Shown here: positions 2,151-16,730 of the stretch, in pieces
Layout: every line of letters begins with the position of its first letter
How positions within the stretch are numbered: position 1 is the stretch's first letter
Assembly: GCA_905182585.1 (NCBI GenBank)
Contig: CAJJCC010000028.1
Coordinates: forward strand, 1 to 56,386
Length of the DNA stretch: 56,386 nucleotides
Source of the DNA: an uncultured Flavobacteriales bacterium
GTDB lineage: Bacteria > Bacteroidota > Bacteroidia > Flavobacteriales_C > GCA-002722245
Reading direction: 5' to 3'
Position numbers and translations under genes: made by a program
Notes under the pieces: model-generated
What the model was told of the DNA's origin: nothing
The model's database searches: none
What the model saw: only the letters and a program-made list of their open reading frames with translations

Positions 2151-4043
2151 TTGAGGGAAACCACTTTTATACGTCAGAAAAAGAAAAGCTGGCAAAAGTT
2201 TGAAGAAATGCAGCGAAGACAAGGATCAGACCCTGATGAGTTGACACGTCTTTTTGTGGAAATTACTGATGACCTTAGCTATTCCCGTACTTTTTACGCC
2301 AAACGATCGGTAAGAGTTTATCTTAACTACCTAGCACAGCTTGTGTTTTTTAAGGTAAACAAGAACAAAAAAGTTAAAATAAAACAATTTTTTAGTTTTT
2401 GGACGACAGGTTTACCCATGGAATTTGCTCGAAGTTGGAAAGCGATGCTTTTTGCTGTATTGATCTTTTTTGGAGCGATGACCGTTGGAGTTGTATCCAC
2501 GATGAATGATATTGGATATGCCGAAGAAATTATGGGCGCGCAGTATATTAGGATGACCGAAGAGAATATAGCAAATGGCGATCCTATGGCGGTTTACCAT
2601 CAACACGGAAGTGCAGGGGAGTCCACTTTTATGCTTACACAAAACAATACTCGTGTTGCTGCATTAACCTATACATCGGGTATTTTGGCTGGTTTACCTC
2701 CCATTATTATTATGGTGAAAAATGGAATAATGATGGGGACGTTTCATTATTATTTGTATTCCAAAGATGTGCTCGTGGATTCGATGTGGGTGGTTTGGAT
2801 TCATGGTGTTTTAGAAATATCTGCGATTGTAATTGCCGGTGGTGCTGGTTTGGTATTGGGTGGTGGATTAATTTTTCCTGGAACTTTCACACGATTACAG
2901 TCTTTGAGAATAAGCGCTAAGCGAAGTTTTAAAATTGCATTAAGTACTCTTTTTATTTTAATTATATCCGGTTTTATTGAAGGAAGTGTTACCCGGTTTA
3001 CGCAAATGCCAATGGGGGTAAAGTATCTGTTGGTGTTGGGATCGTTGGCGTTTATTTGTTTTTACTTTATTGCCTATCCTATTTACTTATACAAGACCAA
3101 AATTCAAACGGGGAAATTTGTTTTTGAAGATAAGATTCCGCACAATCCAACGGGTAGAGTTGAGTTGGAAAAAGTAAGAGAAATAGGTGAAATGTTTAAT
3201 GATTCGTTAAATATTTTTCGGCAAATATTTCCGACGGTTGCAAAATGTTGGTTAGCGCTCTCCTTTCCAATTTTAATTGGTTTAATTGTGTTTCACTTTG
3301 GATTTGCTACTGAATTTAATAAAGAACTTCTTTGGTGGATTAGTATTACCGAATTTTTCACTGTAAATGAATCCATCTGGATTAACCTGAGTTTTTTTAT
3401 GGCTTTAATTATTCCGTTATTTCTCAGTGCCTATTATGCTTTGCAGCAGTATCGTAACAAATGTGCGTTTGGATTAATTGAGTTTTATACGTTTGCAGTG
3501 AAGGGGATTTTAAAGGTATGGCCACTGTTATTGTTTTTGGTGCTTTGTATTTTAGTTGCGCATCCTTTACTTCTTGTGGCGTTCATGGTTTTATGTCCTT
3601 TTATATTTCAGTTTAGTTATTTGGGATTTTATAAAAAAGACACTTACAAAAACAGTTTAAACGACGGTAAAAAGCTGGTGTTTAAATCGTGGTTTGGATC
3701 GGTTGGCTTTTTTATGATTCAAATGACCATTCCGCTATTGTTAATGCTGGCGGCATACTTTTTATTTGGTGAACAAGGCATGGGAATAACCGATTTTGTT
3801 GTTGAATTTATTTTAGAGCATATTTCTCCTTTTGTAAACGACATCGCACCGTTTGCTAACGCCCTTAATTTTGGATTGTATTATATTATTTTTTCAATTG
3901 TACTCACATTTGTAATTGTTGGAATGGCGATTCAATTCCACTCGGTAAGAGAGCGGATAGAGGCGCACAGTTTATATAATAGATTACAAGATTTTGGTAC
4001 AAAACACAACCTTTTCGAACAAATAGATGAAGGTGAATATTAA
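2151..4043 (+). CDS. Stage II sporulation protein M-like (DUF95) membrane protein
   Basis: A 630-residue polytopic membrane protein. The N-terminal half has the SpoIIM/DUF95 arrangement: a soluble start (RETTFIRQKKKSWQKFE), then helices including the GILAGLPPIIIMVKNGIMMG and HGVLEISAIVIAGGAGL motifs. The C-terminal half adds several more hydrophobic helices (about residues 360-600). The start is TTG, and the conserved opening supports it. It is the first gene of a five-gene operon, and its 3' end overlaps the next gene by 17 bp. The organism is not a spore former, so the name reflects homology only. The family often sits with RDD, MoxR and DUF58 genes and is thought to act with them at the membrane. 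Confidence 0.85.
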   Translation: MRETTFIRQKKKSWQKFEEMQRRQGSDPDELTRLFVEITDDLSYSRTFYAKRSVRVYLNYLAQLVFFKVNKNKKVKIKQFFSFWTTGLPMEFARSWKAMLFAVLIFFGAMTVGVVSTMNDIGYAEEIMGAQYIRMTEENIANGDPMAVYHQHGSAGESTFMLTQNNTRVAALTYTSGILAGLPPIIIMVKNGIMMGTFHYYLYSKDVLVDSMWVVWIHGVLEISAIVIAGGAGLVLGGGLIFPGTFTRLQSLRISAKRSFKIALSTLFILIISGFIEGSVTRFTQMPMGVKYLLVLGSLAFICFYFIAYPIYLYKTKIQTGKFVFEDKIPHNPTGRVELEKVREIGEMFNDSLNIFRQIFPTVAKCWLALSFPILIGLIVFHFGFATEFNKELLWWISITEFFTVNESIWINLSFFMALIIPLFLSAYYALQQYRNKCAFGLIEFYTFAVKGILKVWPLLLFLVLCILVAHPLLLVAFMVLCPFIFQFSYLGFYKKDTYKNSLNDGKKLVFKSWFGSVGFFMIQMTIPLLLMLAAYFLFGEQGMGITDFVVEFILEHISPFVNDIAPFANALNFGLYYIIFSIVLTFVIVGMAIQFHSVRERIEAHSLYNRLQDFGTKHNLFEQIDEGEY

Positions 4044-5022
4044 GTTCATATTCTCTGTTTTTTTAGCGATGATCATTAATATATCATTTGCGCAAAAGGA
4101 GCATGTTCTCCCCGTGGAAGTGGATACGGAGGAAGTATTTGCTGAAGAGGTTGAAATCGAACGAAAAAGGTTTAATCAATCGGACTACGATAGTTTAAAA
4201 AATGCAGTAGACCTTATTGAAGTGATGGAAGAAAAGCGACTTAAGGCAGATAGTTCCACTTTTGGAGAGGGCTATGGGGTTGAAAAAGGGGATTCTTACA
4301 CAATTTACAACTATGATTCGATTTCTGGAACCGGAATTTATAGTGAACGGCAAAGAGGAAGCGGTGGTGTTAATGCTGGTGACGGAGTGCTTCCGGAGAA
4401 CAGACAAAATGGTGGGCATAAGGAGTTTCAAAGAAGACATAATAATGATCGGAGAAGAAACTCTAGAAAAGATGTTCAGCGTGAGTATTTAAAAAATAAG
4501 GAAGACTTACATAAAGATAATCCGAGGGAAGAATTTGAAAAGAAGGAAAGGGAAAGAAAACGAAATTCCGGAGGTGGCGCTGGTTTTTTCAAGCTTGTAC
4601 TCATCATTTTGATTGGCGGTATTTTAGCCTTTGCTGTTTATATGTTGTTTTTAAAAACCCCAATGGAAGGGGAGAGTCATAAAATATTATATGATCAGGA
4701 ATTAAATCCGGAAAGTATTAAGTTGACAGAATTGGAACTTAAAATTAAGGCGTCGAAAAAGGCGAATGATTTTAGAGGAGCTACCCGTTTATACTTTGCT
4801 TGGGTAATTAAGGAGTTGTCTGATAGGGACTTTATTGACTGGCGAAAACGTAAAACGAATTCTAATTATTTACTGGAAGTGTCGGATAAGCCGTTTCACA
4901 AAGCTTTTGAGTTGGCTGTGAAAAATTACGAGTTTATTTGGTACGGTAAGTATGAAATTGGCAAGACCGATTTTGAGTTGATTGAGAAAGAGTTTTTGAA
5001 TTTAATTAATAGGATAAAGTAA
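4027..5022 (+). CDS. DUF4129 domain membrane protein
   Basis: A 331-residue protein with a signal peptide (residues 1-22, ending SFAQ), an acidic then strongly basic low-complexity linker (about 126-180, rich in Arg, Lys, Asn and Glu), one membrane segment (187-208), and a cytoplasmic DUF4129 domain to the end (TRLYFAWVIKEL...YEFIWYGKYE). DUF4129 domains also occur at the C-terminus of transglutaminase-like proteins encoded beside MoxR and DUF58 genes. The start codon lies inside the preceding gene (17-bp overlap), which indicates translational coupling. The precise role is unknown. Confidence 0.8.
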   Translation: MKVNIKFIFSVFLAMIINISFAQKEHVLPVEVDTEEVFAEEVEIERKRFNQSDYDSLKNAVDLIEVMEEKRLKADSSTFGEGYGVEKGDSYTIYNYDSISGTGIYSERQRGSGGVNAGDGVLPENRQNGGHKEFQRRHNNDRRRNSRKDVQREYLKNKEDLHKDNPREEFEKKERERKRNSGGGAGFFKLVLIILIGGILAFAVYMLFLKTPMEGESHKILYDQELNPESIKLTELELKIKASKKANDFRGATRLYFAWVIKELSDRDFIDWRKRKTNSNYLLEVSDKPFHKAFELAVKNYEFIWYGKYEIGKTDFELIEKEFLNLINRIK

Positions 5023-9036: not shown

Positions 9037-9885
9037 TTAATTCATTTTTTTTAATTGGAGCTTGCGTAGCGCTTTTTGGAGTTTGAAACTATAAAGGTAA
9101 TTATCTCTGTTATTTTTATTTTCTTCAGCAATAAATACTTCACCAAATGAATTTATACAAACACCTTCTTTTCGGCTCTTTTTGAAGGTTAAAATTTGTA
9201 TTGACGCTACCGGTTGGAAATAGTTTTTAATGACGTATAAGGCCTTTTTTGACAGCAATAGAAGGTTTTCACCATCGGTTGTTAAAGTTGCCGATGTTAT
9301 CCAGCCGTTTGTTAATATAGAATCTTTTAAAACTGCGGTATAGTTTCCGGGAGCAGCTGGGATTTTGTAGATTTTTGTTTGTTTAGATTTTGATCTGTTT
9401 TTGGAAAAAAAGTGTAAAGAATGGTTTGTCCAAATCATAGATTCGCAATCGAAATCTAATTTACCTCCTGCAGGCGAAAAGCTGCTTTGATTTTCATACT
9501 TAAAGTTAATGACTTGAGGTGTTATGGTATCGTATGAAAGTTGTTCGTACGGAAGAATGTAAATTTTTAAATCAACTCTTTTATTTTCATTGTTTCCGAA
9601 GTCACCTATGTATATATTTCCCTGATCATCTTTTGTTAAATCTTCCCAATCGATGTTTCCTCCTCTAACATAGATCGAATGGATAATACTTCCTGTGTGA
9701 TCCAACTTGTAAATTATGGGGTCATTTCCACTATCGTTAATCAACCAGAAATCATTGTTTAAACTAATAATCCCTGAAGCTTCGGGTAACTCTGAAGGTA
9801 TTTGGAAAGTTTGTCGCAAGTTTACTTGTGCTCTTGTAAGTACCGAAATCATAATGAATAATATGAGGCTTATTTCCTTTTTCAT
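9037..9885 (-). CDS. Secreted propeller-like protein, probably lost its T9SS tail
   Basis: A 282-residue protein with a signal peptide (MKKEISLILFIMISVLTRAQ). The body has repeated short beta motifs such as ASGIISLNNDFWLINDSG, DWEDLTKDDQGNIYIGDFG and SATLTTDGENLLLLS, typical of SdiA-regulated/NHL-like beta-propellers in Bacteroidota, which often carry a C-terminal T9SS sorting domain. Here the frame ends at 9037, and a frameshifted sorting-domain remnant follows at 8949-9036. The present protein would enter the periplasm but lack the sorting signal. Its start overlaps (ATGA) the stop of a decayed upstream gene. It may itself be a pseudogene in progress. Function unknown. Confidence 0.65.
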   Translation of the reverse strand: MKKEISLILFIMISVLTRAQVNLRQTFQIPSELPEASGIISLNNDFWLINDSGNDPIIYKLDHTGSIIHSIYVRGGNIDWEDLTKDDQGNIYIGDFGNNENKRVDLKIYILPYEQLSYDTITPQVINFKYENQSSFSPAGGKLDFDCESMIWTNHSLHFFSKNRSKSKQTKIYKIPAAPGNYTAVLKDSILTNGWITSATLTTDGENLLLLSKKALYVIKNYFQPVASIQILTFKKSRKEGVCINSFGEVFIAEENKNNRDNYLYSFKLQKALRKLQLKKMN

Positions 9886-10716: not shown

Positions 10717-11034
10717 ATGAGTTGTAAATATCAAAAAATTTCTTCTAACGAGGTTGGAAGCGTTATTAGTTGTACAGGTTGTGATGAATTAATTATAGGA
10801 ATTGAAACGGTTATGCTAAAACTATCAGTAGCAAATTCGAAGTGTTTTATGAAATTATTAAAAGCGTCTGCCTTAAAGGCTCATAAAAATAAAAACGATA
10901 AGATTTTGTTGGAAACACAATTCGACAATTTGTTTATCACGTTTAATTATCGGGAACTCCAAAAGAGTATTGAGCTATTAGAGTTTGCTTTTTTAAGAAT
11001 GGAAATTAATTCACTTTTACAAGTTAGAATTTAA
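10717..11034 (+). CDS. Small conserved Bacteroidota protein (DUF6686-like)
   Basis: A 105-residue protein with three N-terminal cysteines (C3, and C19xxC22 in SCTGCDELIIG), then a mixed alpha/beta region without membrane segments or signal peptide. The pattern of an early Cys, a CxxC and then an I/L-x-F/I-x core is like small Bacteroidota proteins grouped as DUF6686. That assignment is from memory and tentative. A palindrome covers the base pairs immediately before its ATG. Its stop lies 11 bp inside the end of the convergent gene at 11024. Role unknown. Confidence 0.6.
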   Translation: MSCKYQKISSNEVGSVISCTGCDELIIGIETVMLKLSVANSKCFMKLLKASALKAHKNKNDKILLETQFDNLFITFNYRELQKSIELLEFAFLRMEINSLLQVRI

Positions 11035-14000
11035 GTCCCATTACAAGAACATCATCAACTTGTTCGTGTTTTCCCATCCATTCTTTTAAACGGTCGTCAA
11101 GAACTGCTTTTTGATCCATCATGTTTGCATCTGAGGAACCAATTAACATATCTTTCATTACTCTAGTTTTGAATTTCTTGTTTTTAGGTCCACCAAACTG
11201 ATCAGGATAGCCATCTGAAAACATATAGAAATTATCACCTTCTTGGTAATTAATCGTCGTTAACTCAAAATCCTTAACGGGAACGTCTTTGAACCCAATC
11301 GACATTTTAGTTGCTTTGTACTCCGTTAATTCGTTGTCTCTGATTAAGTAGAGTGGACGATAAGCCCCAGCAAATTCTATCGTCTTCTCTTCTGTACAAA
11401 TGGTGATTAAGCTAATATCCATTCCATCATTTGTTTCAGATTCACTGTTTTCAAAAGCAGTTAAAATACCTTGATCTAGTAAATTTAATATAGTTGCAGG
11501 ATTAGTGATTTTGTTTCCTCCAACAATTTCATTTAACAGTGCAATCCCAATCATACTTGTTAATGCTCCAGGAACACCATGCCCAGTACAATCGGCACAA
11601 GCAATTACAAACTTAGTTTCTACTTTACGATACCAATAAAAATCTCCAGAAACAATGTCCCGGGGAAGATGATAAATAAATGAATTTGGAAAAACATCTT
11701 TTAATTCTTGAACGGTAGGGAATGAAGCTTTTTGGATTGTTAATGCATAACGAATACTTGAATTTAAATCGTTGTTTTTTTGTTCGACCTCCTTGTTGAT
11801 CGAAATCATTTCAAGGTTTACTAATTTTAATTCTTTGTTTTTATCACCTACTTCTTGAGTTCTCTCTTTAACCTTCTCTTCTAATAGCTCTCGTTCTGCC
11901 TTTAGTGTTCCTTCTCTTCGTTTAATGAACGCTACTATGGATACTACAATGACGAGAATAACAACTATTATAAACCAAATTTCTTGCCAAAACGGTGGAG
12001 ATACAATGAAGCAGAATGTAGAAGGGGTTTCCTCGTTACAAATATCATCCTTATTACAGGCATAGACTTCAAATGTATATTCGCCAGGAGGTAATTTGGT
12101 GTATTTAGCCTTTAATGAATTTTCAGATGTTAACTTTTTATCTTCATAGCCTTTTAAGTACCAGAAGTATTGAGTGCTTTTAGGGTTGTCGTGGTTTATG
12201 CCAACAAACTCTATAGTAATGGAAGAAGAGTCATAGGGGAGAACTAGGTTTTTAGGCATTCCATTCCAAGGTTCAATATTATAATTTCGTTTTCTCCAAT
12301 CCGTTTTTTCATTGTTAAATTTTAAGCCAGTAAAATAAGTTTGTGGTTCAATGTCACTTGAGTGATCAACACTTCTGTCATGCTTAATTGCTCCTTTGTT
12401 TGTTCCAAACCATAAGTTTCCATCAAAATCTTCACAAACAGCATTACCGTTAATTTCCCCTCCAATTATTCCGTCTGATTTCCCAAAGTGTTTTATTTCC
12501 GAAATATATTCTCCCGTTTGTCGGGTGATTTGAGGAGGGTTGAAACTTATACGATCTAATCCTTTGTCGGATCCCGCCCATAATTGATTGTCCTCATCAA
12601 AAATTAGCATTTTAATGTTATTTGAACTTAATCGGGAATTGTTCATATCAAATGTGATATACGTATTGTGGCTTTCGTCGAATTTTGTAATTCCTTTTTT
12701 AGTTCCGATGAAGATATTTCCTCTAGGCCCTTTAACCATACAGTTTACAAAATTGGATGCGATTAAATCATCTTCTTCTGTTAAATATCCAAACTCAATT
12801 CCGTTAAACCAGTTAATCCCTCCGCCTTGAGTTCCAATCCAAAGCTTTCCGCTCTTATCTTGAACAATGGATGAGATTCTACCTTGATTCATCCCGTCTA
12901 TCATACGGTAGAACTTGAATTTCCCATCAATTAATTTTCCTAAGCCACCTTCAGTCCCAACCCAAATATTGTTTTCGTTATCTTCAAAAACACAAGTGAC
13001 TGGGTTAACAACTCCATCAGCAATAGAGTATACTTTTTCAATTTCTCCGTCTACAATCTTAGCAAGTCCAATTAAGGTTCCAACCCAAATATTTTCATCT
13101 TTGTCTTCATATACTGTAGTTGTGTAGTCAACCGGTAATCCAGATTTTTTATTGTAAATCTTAAAGGAGTCAATTCCATTATATCGAATTAATCCTCCTC
13201 TTGTTGCAAACCAATAATTATCTTCTGAATCTTGTAGAATACCGTTAATTTTTTCATTTTCCAAGCCTTCTTTCTCTCCGAAATAAGTAAATGAAATTCC
13301 TTTGAATTTGTTAATTCCTCCTCCTTTGGTTCCAACCCAAATGTTATCGTTTTTGTCTTCAAGTATACTGAGGACAATATCTTCACTTAAACCTTTGTCT
13401 GTATTATAAATCTTATATTCAAAAGTATTAATGTTTAATCGGACAACACCATTTCTGGAAGTTCCAATCCACATATTATTATTTTTGTCTTCTTCTAATG
13501 TTAATGCTGCGTCGATCGGAAAACCATTTTTCTTATTATAATTTTTAAAGCGTTCGCCATTAAATTGACTCAACCCTGAGGAGGTTGCTAGCCAAATATC
13601 TCCATTTACATCTTCATGTAAATCATAAATATTACGACCTTCTAAGCCGTCTTTTTTACTGTAGGTTTTTAAGTTTCCGTTAAATATTTCAGCTAAACCT
13701 TGATTCGTTGCTACATAGATTTTAGCATCGGGGGTTTCAATTACTTTATTTACGGATACATTGCTTGAGCCACCAAAATCGATGTTATAAGGAACAAATT
13801 CAGCTTTTTCTTTAGCGAAATTATCAAGCATGCAAAGTCCACCATATTGTGTTCCAATCCATAATCGGCCAAACGCATCTTCACACACTGATTTAATAAT
13901 GTTGTTCGGAAGTCCGTCTTCCTGAGTATAGGTTCTAAAGTCTTTGCCATCATAAACGGTAAGGCCTTTATGCGTTCCAATCCAAATATGTCCTTTTACA

Positions 14001-14251
14001 TCTTCGTAAAGACTGTAAATTATGTTTGAAGGAAGTCCTGATTCGGAATTAATATATTCGAAGTTAACACCATTATAAATGGTTATTCCTTGTTGAGTTG
14101 CCATCCAGATAGCACCTCTTTTATCTTGAATTAAATCGTGAACATCATTTTGAGAAAGTCCGTCTTCTACCGTTAGGTTAAGGAAGTGGTAACTCTGGCC
14201 AATTGTGGCAAGGCTAATAAATAGTAGGACAAGTAGTGATAATTTTCTCAT
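11024..14251 (-). CDS. Propeller sensor with SpoIIE/PP2C phosphatase output
   Basis: A 1075-residue membrane receptor. A signal peptide (1-19) leads to about a dozen two-component-regulator propeller repeats of the form GLP-x-N-x-I...E-D-x-x-G-x-I/L-W-I-G-T (to about residue 630), then a Y_Y_Y-type domain (about 690-750), a membrane helix (758-776), a coiled coil (about 780-830) and a SpoIIE-type serine phosphatase (about 850-1075). Metal-binding motifs are present: SGDFYWY (868-874), DCTGHGVPGALTSM (887-900), NDGMD, SDGYPDQ (1012-1018) and DDVLVMG near the end. Most propeller receptors of this class end in a histidine kinase, so this one signals by dephosphorylation. The SiaB-like kinase and SiaC-like gene about 1.5 kb away are plausible partners. 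Confidence 0.9.
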   Translation of the reverse strand: MRKLSLLVLLFISLATIGQSYHFLNLTVEDGLSQNDVHDLIQDKRGAIWMATQQGITIYNGVNFEYINSESGLPSNIIYSLYEDVKGHIWIGTHKGLTVYDGKDFRTYTQEDGLPNNIIKSVCEDAFGRLWIGTQYGGLCMLDNFAKEKAEFVPYNIDFGGSSNVSVNKVIETPDAKIYVATNQGLAEIFNGNLKTYSKKDGLEGRNIYDLHEDVNGDIWLATSSGLSQFNGERFKNYNKKNGFPIDAALTLEEDKNNNMWIGTSRNGVVRLNINTFEYKIYNTDKGLSEDIVLSILEDKNDNIWVGTKGGGINKFKGISFTYFGEKEGLENEKINGILQDSEDNYWFATRGGLIRYNGIDSFKIYNKKSGLPVDYTTTVYEDKDENIWVGTLIGLAKIVDGEIEKVYSIADGVVNPVTCVFEDNENNIWVGTEGGLGKLIDGKFKFYRMIDGMNQGRISSIVQDKSGKLWIGTQGGGINWFNGIEFGYLTEEDDLIASNFVNCMVKGPRGNIFIGTKKGITKFDESHNTYITFDMNNSRLSSNNIKMLIFDEDNQLWAGSDKGLDRISFNPPQITRQTGEYISEIKHFGKSDGIIGGEINGNAVCEDFDGNLWFGTNKGAIKHDRSVDHSSDIEPQTYFTGLKFNNEKTDWRKRNYNIEPWNGMPKNLVLPYDSSSITIEFVGINHDNPKSTQYFWYLKGYEDKKLTSENSLKAKYTKLPPGEYTFEVYACNKDDICNEETPSTFCFIVSPPFWQEIWFIIVVILVIVVSIVAFIKRREGTLKAERELLEEKVKERTQEVGDKNKELKLVNLEMISINKEVEQKNNDLNSSIRYALTIQKASFPTVQELKDVFPNSFIYHLPRDIVSGDFYWYRKVETKFVIACADCTGHGVPGALTSMIGIALLNEIVGGNKITNPATILNLLDQGILTAFENSESETNDGMDISLITICTEEKTIEFAGAYRPLYLIRDNELTEYKATKMSIGFKDVPVKDFELTTINYQEGDNFYMFSDGYPDQFGGPKNKKFKTRVMKDMLIGSSDANMMDQKAVLDDRLKEWMGKHEQVDDVLVMGLKF

Positions 14252-15667: not shown

Positions 15668-15807
15668 GGATATGTTTTTTTTGGATTTAACAATTGTGCA
15701 TCATAAATATAGTAAAGAAAACGCGCTCATTGAAGACATTGAATAAAAAAATTGCACGAATTTATAACTTTTATAAATTCTTTTCGTACAAATCCGCGAA
15801 AGGCGTT

Positions 15808-16347
15808 ATGAAGAACATTAATTCACAGTTTGCTTACGAGACACATCAGCTTATGGAAGGCGGAGACGTTAGGCTATCCTTTTCTGGAGAATTCTCACCA
15901 GACTTGATTACCGTATTACTTTTAATGGCCAAAAGCAATATTGGTGATAAATCAGTTATGAAAAAGGTTTACAACGTAATGATTGAGTGTTTGGAGAATT
16001 TAACAAAGCATTCCTTAAAAATAGAAGGCGATCAGTTCCCTGCTATGTTTTTATTAGGAAAAGATGACGACTATTATTATTTGGCTACAGGAAATAAGAT
16101 AGCGAGTAATGGAGTTAAAGGATTGGAAAACAAGCTAATAAAAATTAATTCTTTAGATAAAAAGGGATTGATGGTTTGGTATAATGAAATATTAACTTCG
16201 GATACAAGCTTCTCTTCTAAAGGTGGAGCTGGATTAGGTATTATTGATATGGCGTTGAAAAGTGGAAATAAATTTGAATATAGTTTTAATCAAATTGATG
16301 ATTCTAATTCGTTTTTTACATTGAAAGTTAAAGTAGAACAGGAGTAA
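15808..16347 (+). CDS. siaB: SiaB family protein kinase (DUF6272)
   Basis: A 179-residue protein resembling SiaB-type kinases with a GHKL-like ATP-binding fold: an N-box-like helix (MIECLENLTKH, with the Glu/Asn pair) and a glycine-rich loop, KGGAGLGIIDMA. In Pseudomonas, SiaB phosphorylates SiaC (DUF1987) and the SiaA phosphatase reverses it, controlling a diguanylate cyclase; Bacteroidota carry SiaB/SiaC pairs of unstudied output. The open frame extends to an ATG at 15694, but the extra 38 residues are basic and unlike the family, so the ATG at 15808 (MKNINSQFAYE) is chosen. One base separates it from the broken siaC. Confidence 0.8.
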   Translation: MKNINSQFAYETHQLMEGGDVRLSFSGEFSPDLITVLLLMAKSNIGDKSVMKKVYNVMIECLENLTKHSLKIEGDQFPAMFLLGKDDDYYYLATGNKIASNGVKGLENKLIKINSLDKKGLMVWYNEILTSDTSFSSKGGAGLGIIDMALKSGNKFEYSFNQIDDSNSFFTLKVKVEQE

Positions 16348-16348
16348 G

Positions 16349-16730
16349 ATGGAGTCACTTAGAATTAAAAAAGGAGATACTACTCCCAAGTTAGATTTTG
16401 ATCTTGATAAAATGGAATTTTCACTTGAAGGTGAAAGTCGTTCAGAAGACGTTCTTACTTTTTACGAACCAATTATCAAGTGGCTAGACAACTTTAAAGA
16501 ATGGTTCTTCCAAAAAATTGGAGTTTCAATTTAAATTCGAATATTATAACTCATCGTCTGCTAAATTCATGTTTAGCATCTTTAAAAGATTAAAGGAAAT
16601 GCAAGTCAAAGGACTTGAAATCACGATGTTTTGGTTTTATGATGTTTCGGATGAAGATTTATTATAATATGGAGAAGAGTATGAAAAAGTACTAGGTTTT
16701 AAATTCGAATATATTGCATTACAGGATTAG
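16349..16730 (+). pseudogene. siaC: SiaC-like (DUF1987) gene, frameshift plus internal stop
   Basis: The first 57 codons read as a normal DUF1987 N-terminus: MESLRIKKGDTTPKLDFDLD, then FYEPIIKWLDNFKEWFFQK. After the A6 run near 16511-16516 the frame runs to a stop at 16534. One base fewer in that run would restore LEFQFKFEYYNSSSAKFMF, FKRLKEMQVKGLEITMFWFY and DVSDEDLL. A TAA then interrupts (the E codon of a presumed EYGEEYEK), and the frame continues to LGFKFEYIALQD and TAG at 16730. The whole would be about 126 residues, the family norm. The conserved middle includes the SSSAK segment, where the phospho-acceptor lies in homologues. Two lesions argue for a real pseudogene rather than one sequencing error. 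Confidence 0.85.

Follow-up and report, generated by a model that had tools for sequence, protein, structure and literature searches.

The siaC gene beside an intact siaB kinase gene in this Flavobacteriales genome is very probably a recent pseudogene (siaC_B), part of a spare siaB-siaC module that is eroding its substrate first, with the core function residing on a separate pair elsewhere in the genome. The window, i.e., the whole stretch of 56,386 nucleotides analyzed here, is contig C28 of a 1.52-Mb draft genome (G000) in 63 contigs, with an estimated completeness of 74.5%. It was compared with four congeners (G001, G002, G003, and G004, making five genomes of the genus), the closest relative being G003, a Flavobacteriales MAG (JAQXEE010000141). 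Gene order at the locus is the same in G003, and the flanking proteins are 93 to 99% identical to those of the window; the neighbors of the pair are genes for a citrate synthase and a 2-hydroxyacid dehydrogenase, on the other strand. We refer to the pair in the window as the B module or pair (siaB_B-siaC_B) and to the one found on contig C46 as the A module or pair (siaB_A-siaC_A). The features discussed are listed in Table 1.

TABLE 1 Features of the B module, its surroundings in the window, and the A pair on contig C46
Feature	Position	Strand	Remarks
SpoIIE/PP2C phosphatase with Reg_prop and Y_Y_Y sensor domains	11024..14251	-	Intact; PF07228, PF07494
Upstream stretch of siaB_B, candidate promoter region	15765..15807	+	Conserved AACTTTT...TTTCGTA element
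siaB_B, predicted kinase gene (DUF6272/SiaB family) of the accessory B module	15808..16347	+	Intact, 179 aa
siaC_B, probable pseudogene	16349..16730	+	ATG start at 16349, original-frame stop TAG at 16728-16730; PF09345 in two frames, syntenic intact orthologues
Remaining N-terminal open frame	16349..16534	+	61 aa, runs out of frame to TAA at 16532-16534
Surroundings of the 14-bp deletion junction	16493..16511	+	Imperfect 14-bp tandem repeat reduced to one unit
C-terminal SiaC remnant	16506..16730	+	Second frame, TAA inside
Nonsense codon TAA	16665..16667	+	Glu in three relatives
siaB_A	L033 1458-2018 (contig C46)		Kinase of the intact pair
siaC_A	L033 1067-1450 (contig C46)		Intact, NTSS site

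The pseudogene lies directly 3' of the kinase gene, and its original stop codon faces the 3' end of the 2-hydroxyacid dehydrogenase gene. It passes the cutoff of the Pfam SiaC family (PF09345, 24.5 bits) only as two pieces in different frames, an N-terminal one (16364-16531, 41.8 bits) and a C-terminal one (16470-16718, 61.2 bits) that has stops inside, which confirms the split DUF1987/SiaC reading frame described by the first-pass annotation. The cause given there, a single A too many in an A-run near 16511-16516, had to be dropped, since the run at 16512-16517 lines up position by position with AAGAAA in G003 and shows no shift of register in the relatives. Instead, 14 bp have been lost, and the DNA alignment places the junction of this deletion at 16505/16506 or 16506/16507. 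Removing exactly one 14-bp unit from the imperfect tandem that G003 carries at this point (TTTAAAGAATGGTT/TTTAAAGAATGAAT) gives the sequence seen in the window, the signature of a slipped-strand deletion, so that the frame is shifted after about codon 52. The second lesion had been correctly recognized as a TAA in place of a likely Glu codon, the aligned codon being GAA in G003, GAA in G001, and GAG in G002. Together the two leave no continuous frame across the domain. In these three congeners siaC is intact at the same place (129 aa in G003), and both lesions are confined to the genome of the window among the five of the genus.

The phosphorylation-region motif of the B copy is NSSS, equivalent to the NTSS that contains T68 in Pseudomonas aeruginosa SiaC. 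It lies downstream of the frameshift and is hence absent from the 61-aa product, which has no Ser or Thr at the T68 position. Lacking both the phosphosite and the target-binding helix, this remnant should be incapable both of serving as a kinase substrate and of SiaC-like target binding. The intact sister SiaC_B of G003 (L036 4027-4416) reads NSLS in place of NSSS at its phosphorylation region and stops a few codons short, and it may also be weakly constrained.

The neighboring siaB_B codes for a predicted SiaB-family kinase that, by analogy, would phosphorylate SiaC. Its product matches NF038262 (SiaB_fam_kinase, 125.8 bits versus a cutoff of 85, 1.3e-36), bearing out the intact SiaB-like kinase noted in the first-pass annotation, as well as PF19788 (114.9 bits versus a cutoff of 26.6, 2.7e-33), and its sole sequence match among solved structures is the P. 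aeruginosa SiaB (6kko_A, 4.2e-10). Compared with 37 other SiaB proteins, it keeps the GHKL N-box MIECLENLTKH, with the catalytic Glu, and the G2 (ATP-binding) box KGGAGLG. The conserved element upstream of the gene is present in all five genomes of the genus with small variations, and scanning the surroundings of the B module for promoter and terminator patterns gave nothing reliable above background.

A profile search of the contigs of the genome recovered an intact SiaC on C46 (PF09345, 154.9 bits), beside its own intact and highly conserved SiaB. The search for other DUF1987 proteins thus had a positive outcome, and the idea that SiaC is gone from the whole genome was discarded. The two pairs have the same two-gene order and belong to the same families, but they differ in constraint and distribution. 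The A pair, with its NTSS site, is highly constrained (omega versus G003 of 0.009 for siaC_A and 0.033 for siaB_A) and is present in the genus and family genomes checked, whereas the B pair evolves fast (0.205 for siaC_B and 0.131 for siaB_B) and close SiaB_B orthologues were found, among the genomes compared, only in this genus; these omega values are simple Nei-Gojobori estimates from few changes between the genome of the window and G003. Among the 36 genes compared between these two genomes, siaC_B had the highest dN. Between G001 and G002, SiaC_A is 98.4% identical and SiaC_B 65.6%, and SiaC_A and SiaC_B share only about one-third identity with each other. The fast rates and the restriction to the genus indicate that the B pair is an accessory, fast-evolving copy. 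Two further proteins of the window without a Pfam match (4027-5022 and 9037-9885) are also fast evolving (omega versus G003 of 0.205 and 0.295). A third, divergent SiaC without a SiaB neighbor and without the N-T/S-S-S motif is found in G003 (L045 3133-3540), with similar ones in G001 and G002; nothing closely resembling the corresponding part of G003 turned up in the incomplete assembly to which the window belongs.

The lesions are probably young. Using G001 and G002 to polarize the changes, we counted 6 synonymous and 8 nonsynonymous changes in siaC_B on the branch of the window and 6 and 6 on that of G003, small counts that leave out 15 siaC_B changes that could not be polarized. A siaC_B unconstrained over the whole branch would be expected to show a several-fold excess of nonsynonymous changes, and the counts are far from this neutral expectation. 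The equally limited counts for siaB_B (12 synonymous and 7 nonsynonymous on the branch of the window, 15 and 13 on that of G003) show no acceleration on the branch of the window, so the kinase may perhaps still be doing something. If the lesions are recent, though, an intact kinase is no evidence for its continued use.

A related situation was found in G004. At its locus (L056) the order is SpoIIE, citrate synthase, siaB_B, and 2-hydroxyacid dehydrogenase, the same synteny as in the window, but siaC is completely absent, with about 15 bp between the stop of siaB_B and the end of the dehydrogenase gene. The kinase gene (L056 5062-5607) is full length (181 aa), although its G2 box reads KSDQGIG versus GGxGLG in nearly all others, the strongest departure among 38 SiaB proteins. 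In concatenated trees G004 falls together with G001 and G002, although weakly (UFBoot of 89, and 59 with another gene set), so the absence of siaC there is probably, if not certainly, a loss, most simply a second and independent one.

The first-pass annotation had proposed that the kinase either lost its cis substrate or acts on a paralogue elsewhere. The first part is supported by the split siaC frame, and a paralogue does exist on C46, but the action in trans found no support. In this alternative, SiaB_B would be kept because it acts on another SiaC (SiaC_A or one encoded in the quarter of the genome that the assembly lacks), the module being rewired rather than killed. The genome does have a full SiaC paralogue with an NTSS site, siaB_B retains all its motifs without acceleration on the branch of the window, and G004 likewise keeps a full-length SiaB_B without a cis siaC. 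Unlinked partners are also common, since in a wider survey of 40 relatives 76 of 88 SiaB matches had a SiaC just downstream and 12 did not, while 61 of 129 SiaC matches had no SiaB just upstream. However, SiaC_A has its own adjacent kinase and only about a third of its residues in common with SiaC_B, the integrity of the kinase is uninformative if the lesions are recent, and the damaged G2 box of G004 suggests that its SiaB_B is decaying or has changed its role, and not that it is active as a kinase in trans. We therefore regard this alternative as unlikely. It seems similarly improbable that siaC has been lost repeatedly from the citrate synthase-linked module with the kinase kept as (or becoming) a trans-acting or nonkinase regulator.

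G020 has one more interrupted SiaC (L057 2832-3218, minus strand), again immediately following an intact SiaB. A single in-frame TAG falls in its variable loop, close to the position equivalent to the deletion of the window. A literature search by family names found no study of SiaB or SiaC of Bacteroidota.

It is highly unlikely that the organism has an intact gene in which assembly or binning collapsed a short tandem repeat and introduced one wrong base. The deletion is exactly one unit of a repeat present in the sister genome, and the source is a fragmented draft; on the other hand, the imperfect repeat of 28 bp is far below the usual read length, and G004 likewise has no siaC at this locus. 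Moreover, over about 47 kb of collinear sequence, 33 of the 34 open frames that reach 90 aa in G003 have a complete counterpart in the window and only siaC does not, which makes a generally poor assembly unlikely and led us to drop an error-prone assembly as the explanation. That a gene of 382 bp holds two unrelated lesions when the rest of the assembly is clean favors a genuine pseudogene. We also discarded programmed frameshifting and split translation, because the relatives have one frame, the bases are missing without a slip site, and the second frame has a stop.

The gene is broken as assembled and is very probably a true and recent pseudogene of the ordinary kind. In the decay of a spare module that we favor, a 14-bp unit of the imperfect tandem repeat would have been deleted, most simply by slipped-strand replication, shifting the frame, and a separate GAA-to-TAA change would stop the downstream frame. 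With only a 61-aa remnant devoid of the phosphorylation helix, the B module would be dead at its output, and the kinase would still be intact since the loss of siaC is recent. The A pair on C46 would suffice for the core function of the pathway. Such a module would decay substrate first, for which G004, with siaC gone and the ATP-binding motif of the kinase changed, may offer a parallel. If so, the locus provides a clean example of the decay of a partner-switch module, starting with the substrate, in at least one and probably two lineages that keep a near-invariant sister pair. The presence of SiaB with and without a cis SiaC at one locus also makes it natural material on the specificity of SiaB-SiaC pairing in Bacteroidota, a group with numerous unlinked SiaB and SiaC genes.

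The best-known system of this kind is that of P. aeruginosa, where SiaB phosphorylates SiaC at T68 and SiaA dephosphorylates it (PMC7647112), and where unphosphorylated SiaC activates the diguanylate cyclase SiaD, an activation that phosphorylation blocks (PMC8457831). Unlike in P. aeruginosa, siaC is broken in the window, the phosphosite of the B copies is Ser and not Thr, and no SiaD-type diguanylate cyclase gene adjoins the window locus, which thus does not make up a SiaABCD module. The scores are far under the cutoffs of the P. aeruginosa equivalog models; the siaB_B product reaches 57 bits with the SiaB model NF038264 versus a cutoff of 225. The phosphatase of the window also differs, being a Reg_prop/Y_Y_Y protein encoded on the other strand, beyond the citrate synthase. 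Its C-terminal part is SiaA-like (NF038263, 1.9e-51, residues 790 to 1075, below the model cutoff), and its synteny is kept in G001, G002, G003, and G004, so that by proximity and conserved synteny it is a candidate partner phosphatase. Despite these differences, the window resembles the SiaA/SiaB/SiaC/SiaD module (PMC7647112, PMC8457831) in having a GHKL-type SiaB-family kinase gene directly upstream of SiaC/DUF1987, a conserved Glu in this kinase that aligns to E61 of SiaB, an N-[T/S]-S-S phosphorylation region in SiaC, and a gene with a PP2C (SiaA-like) phosphatase domain near the pair.
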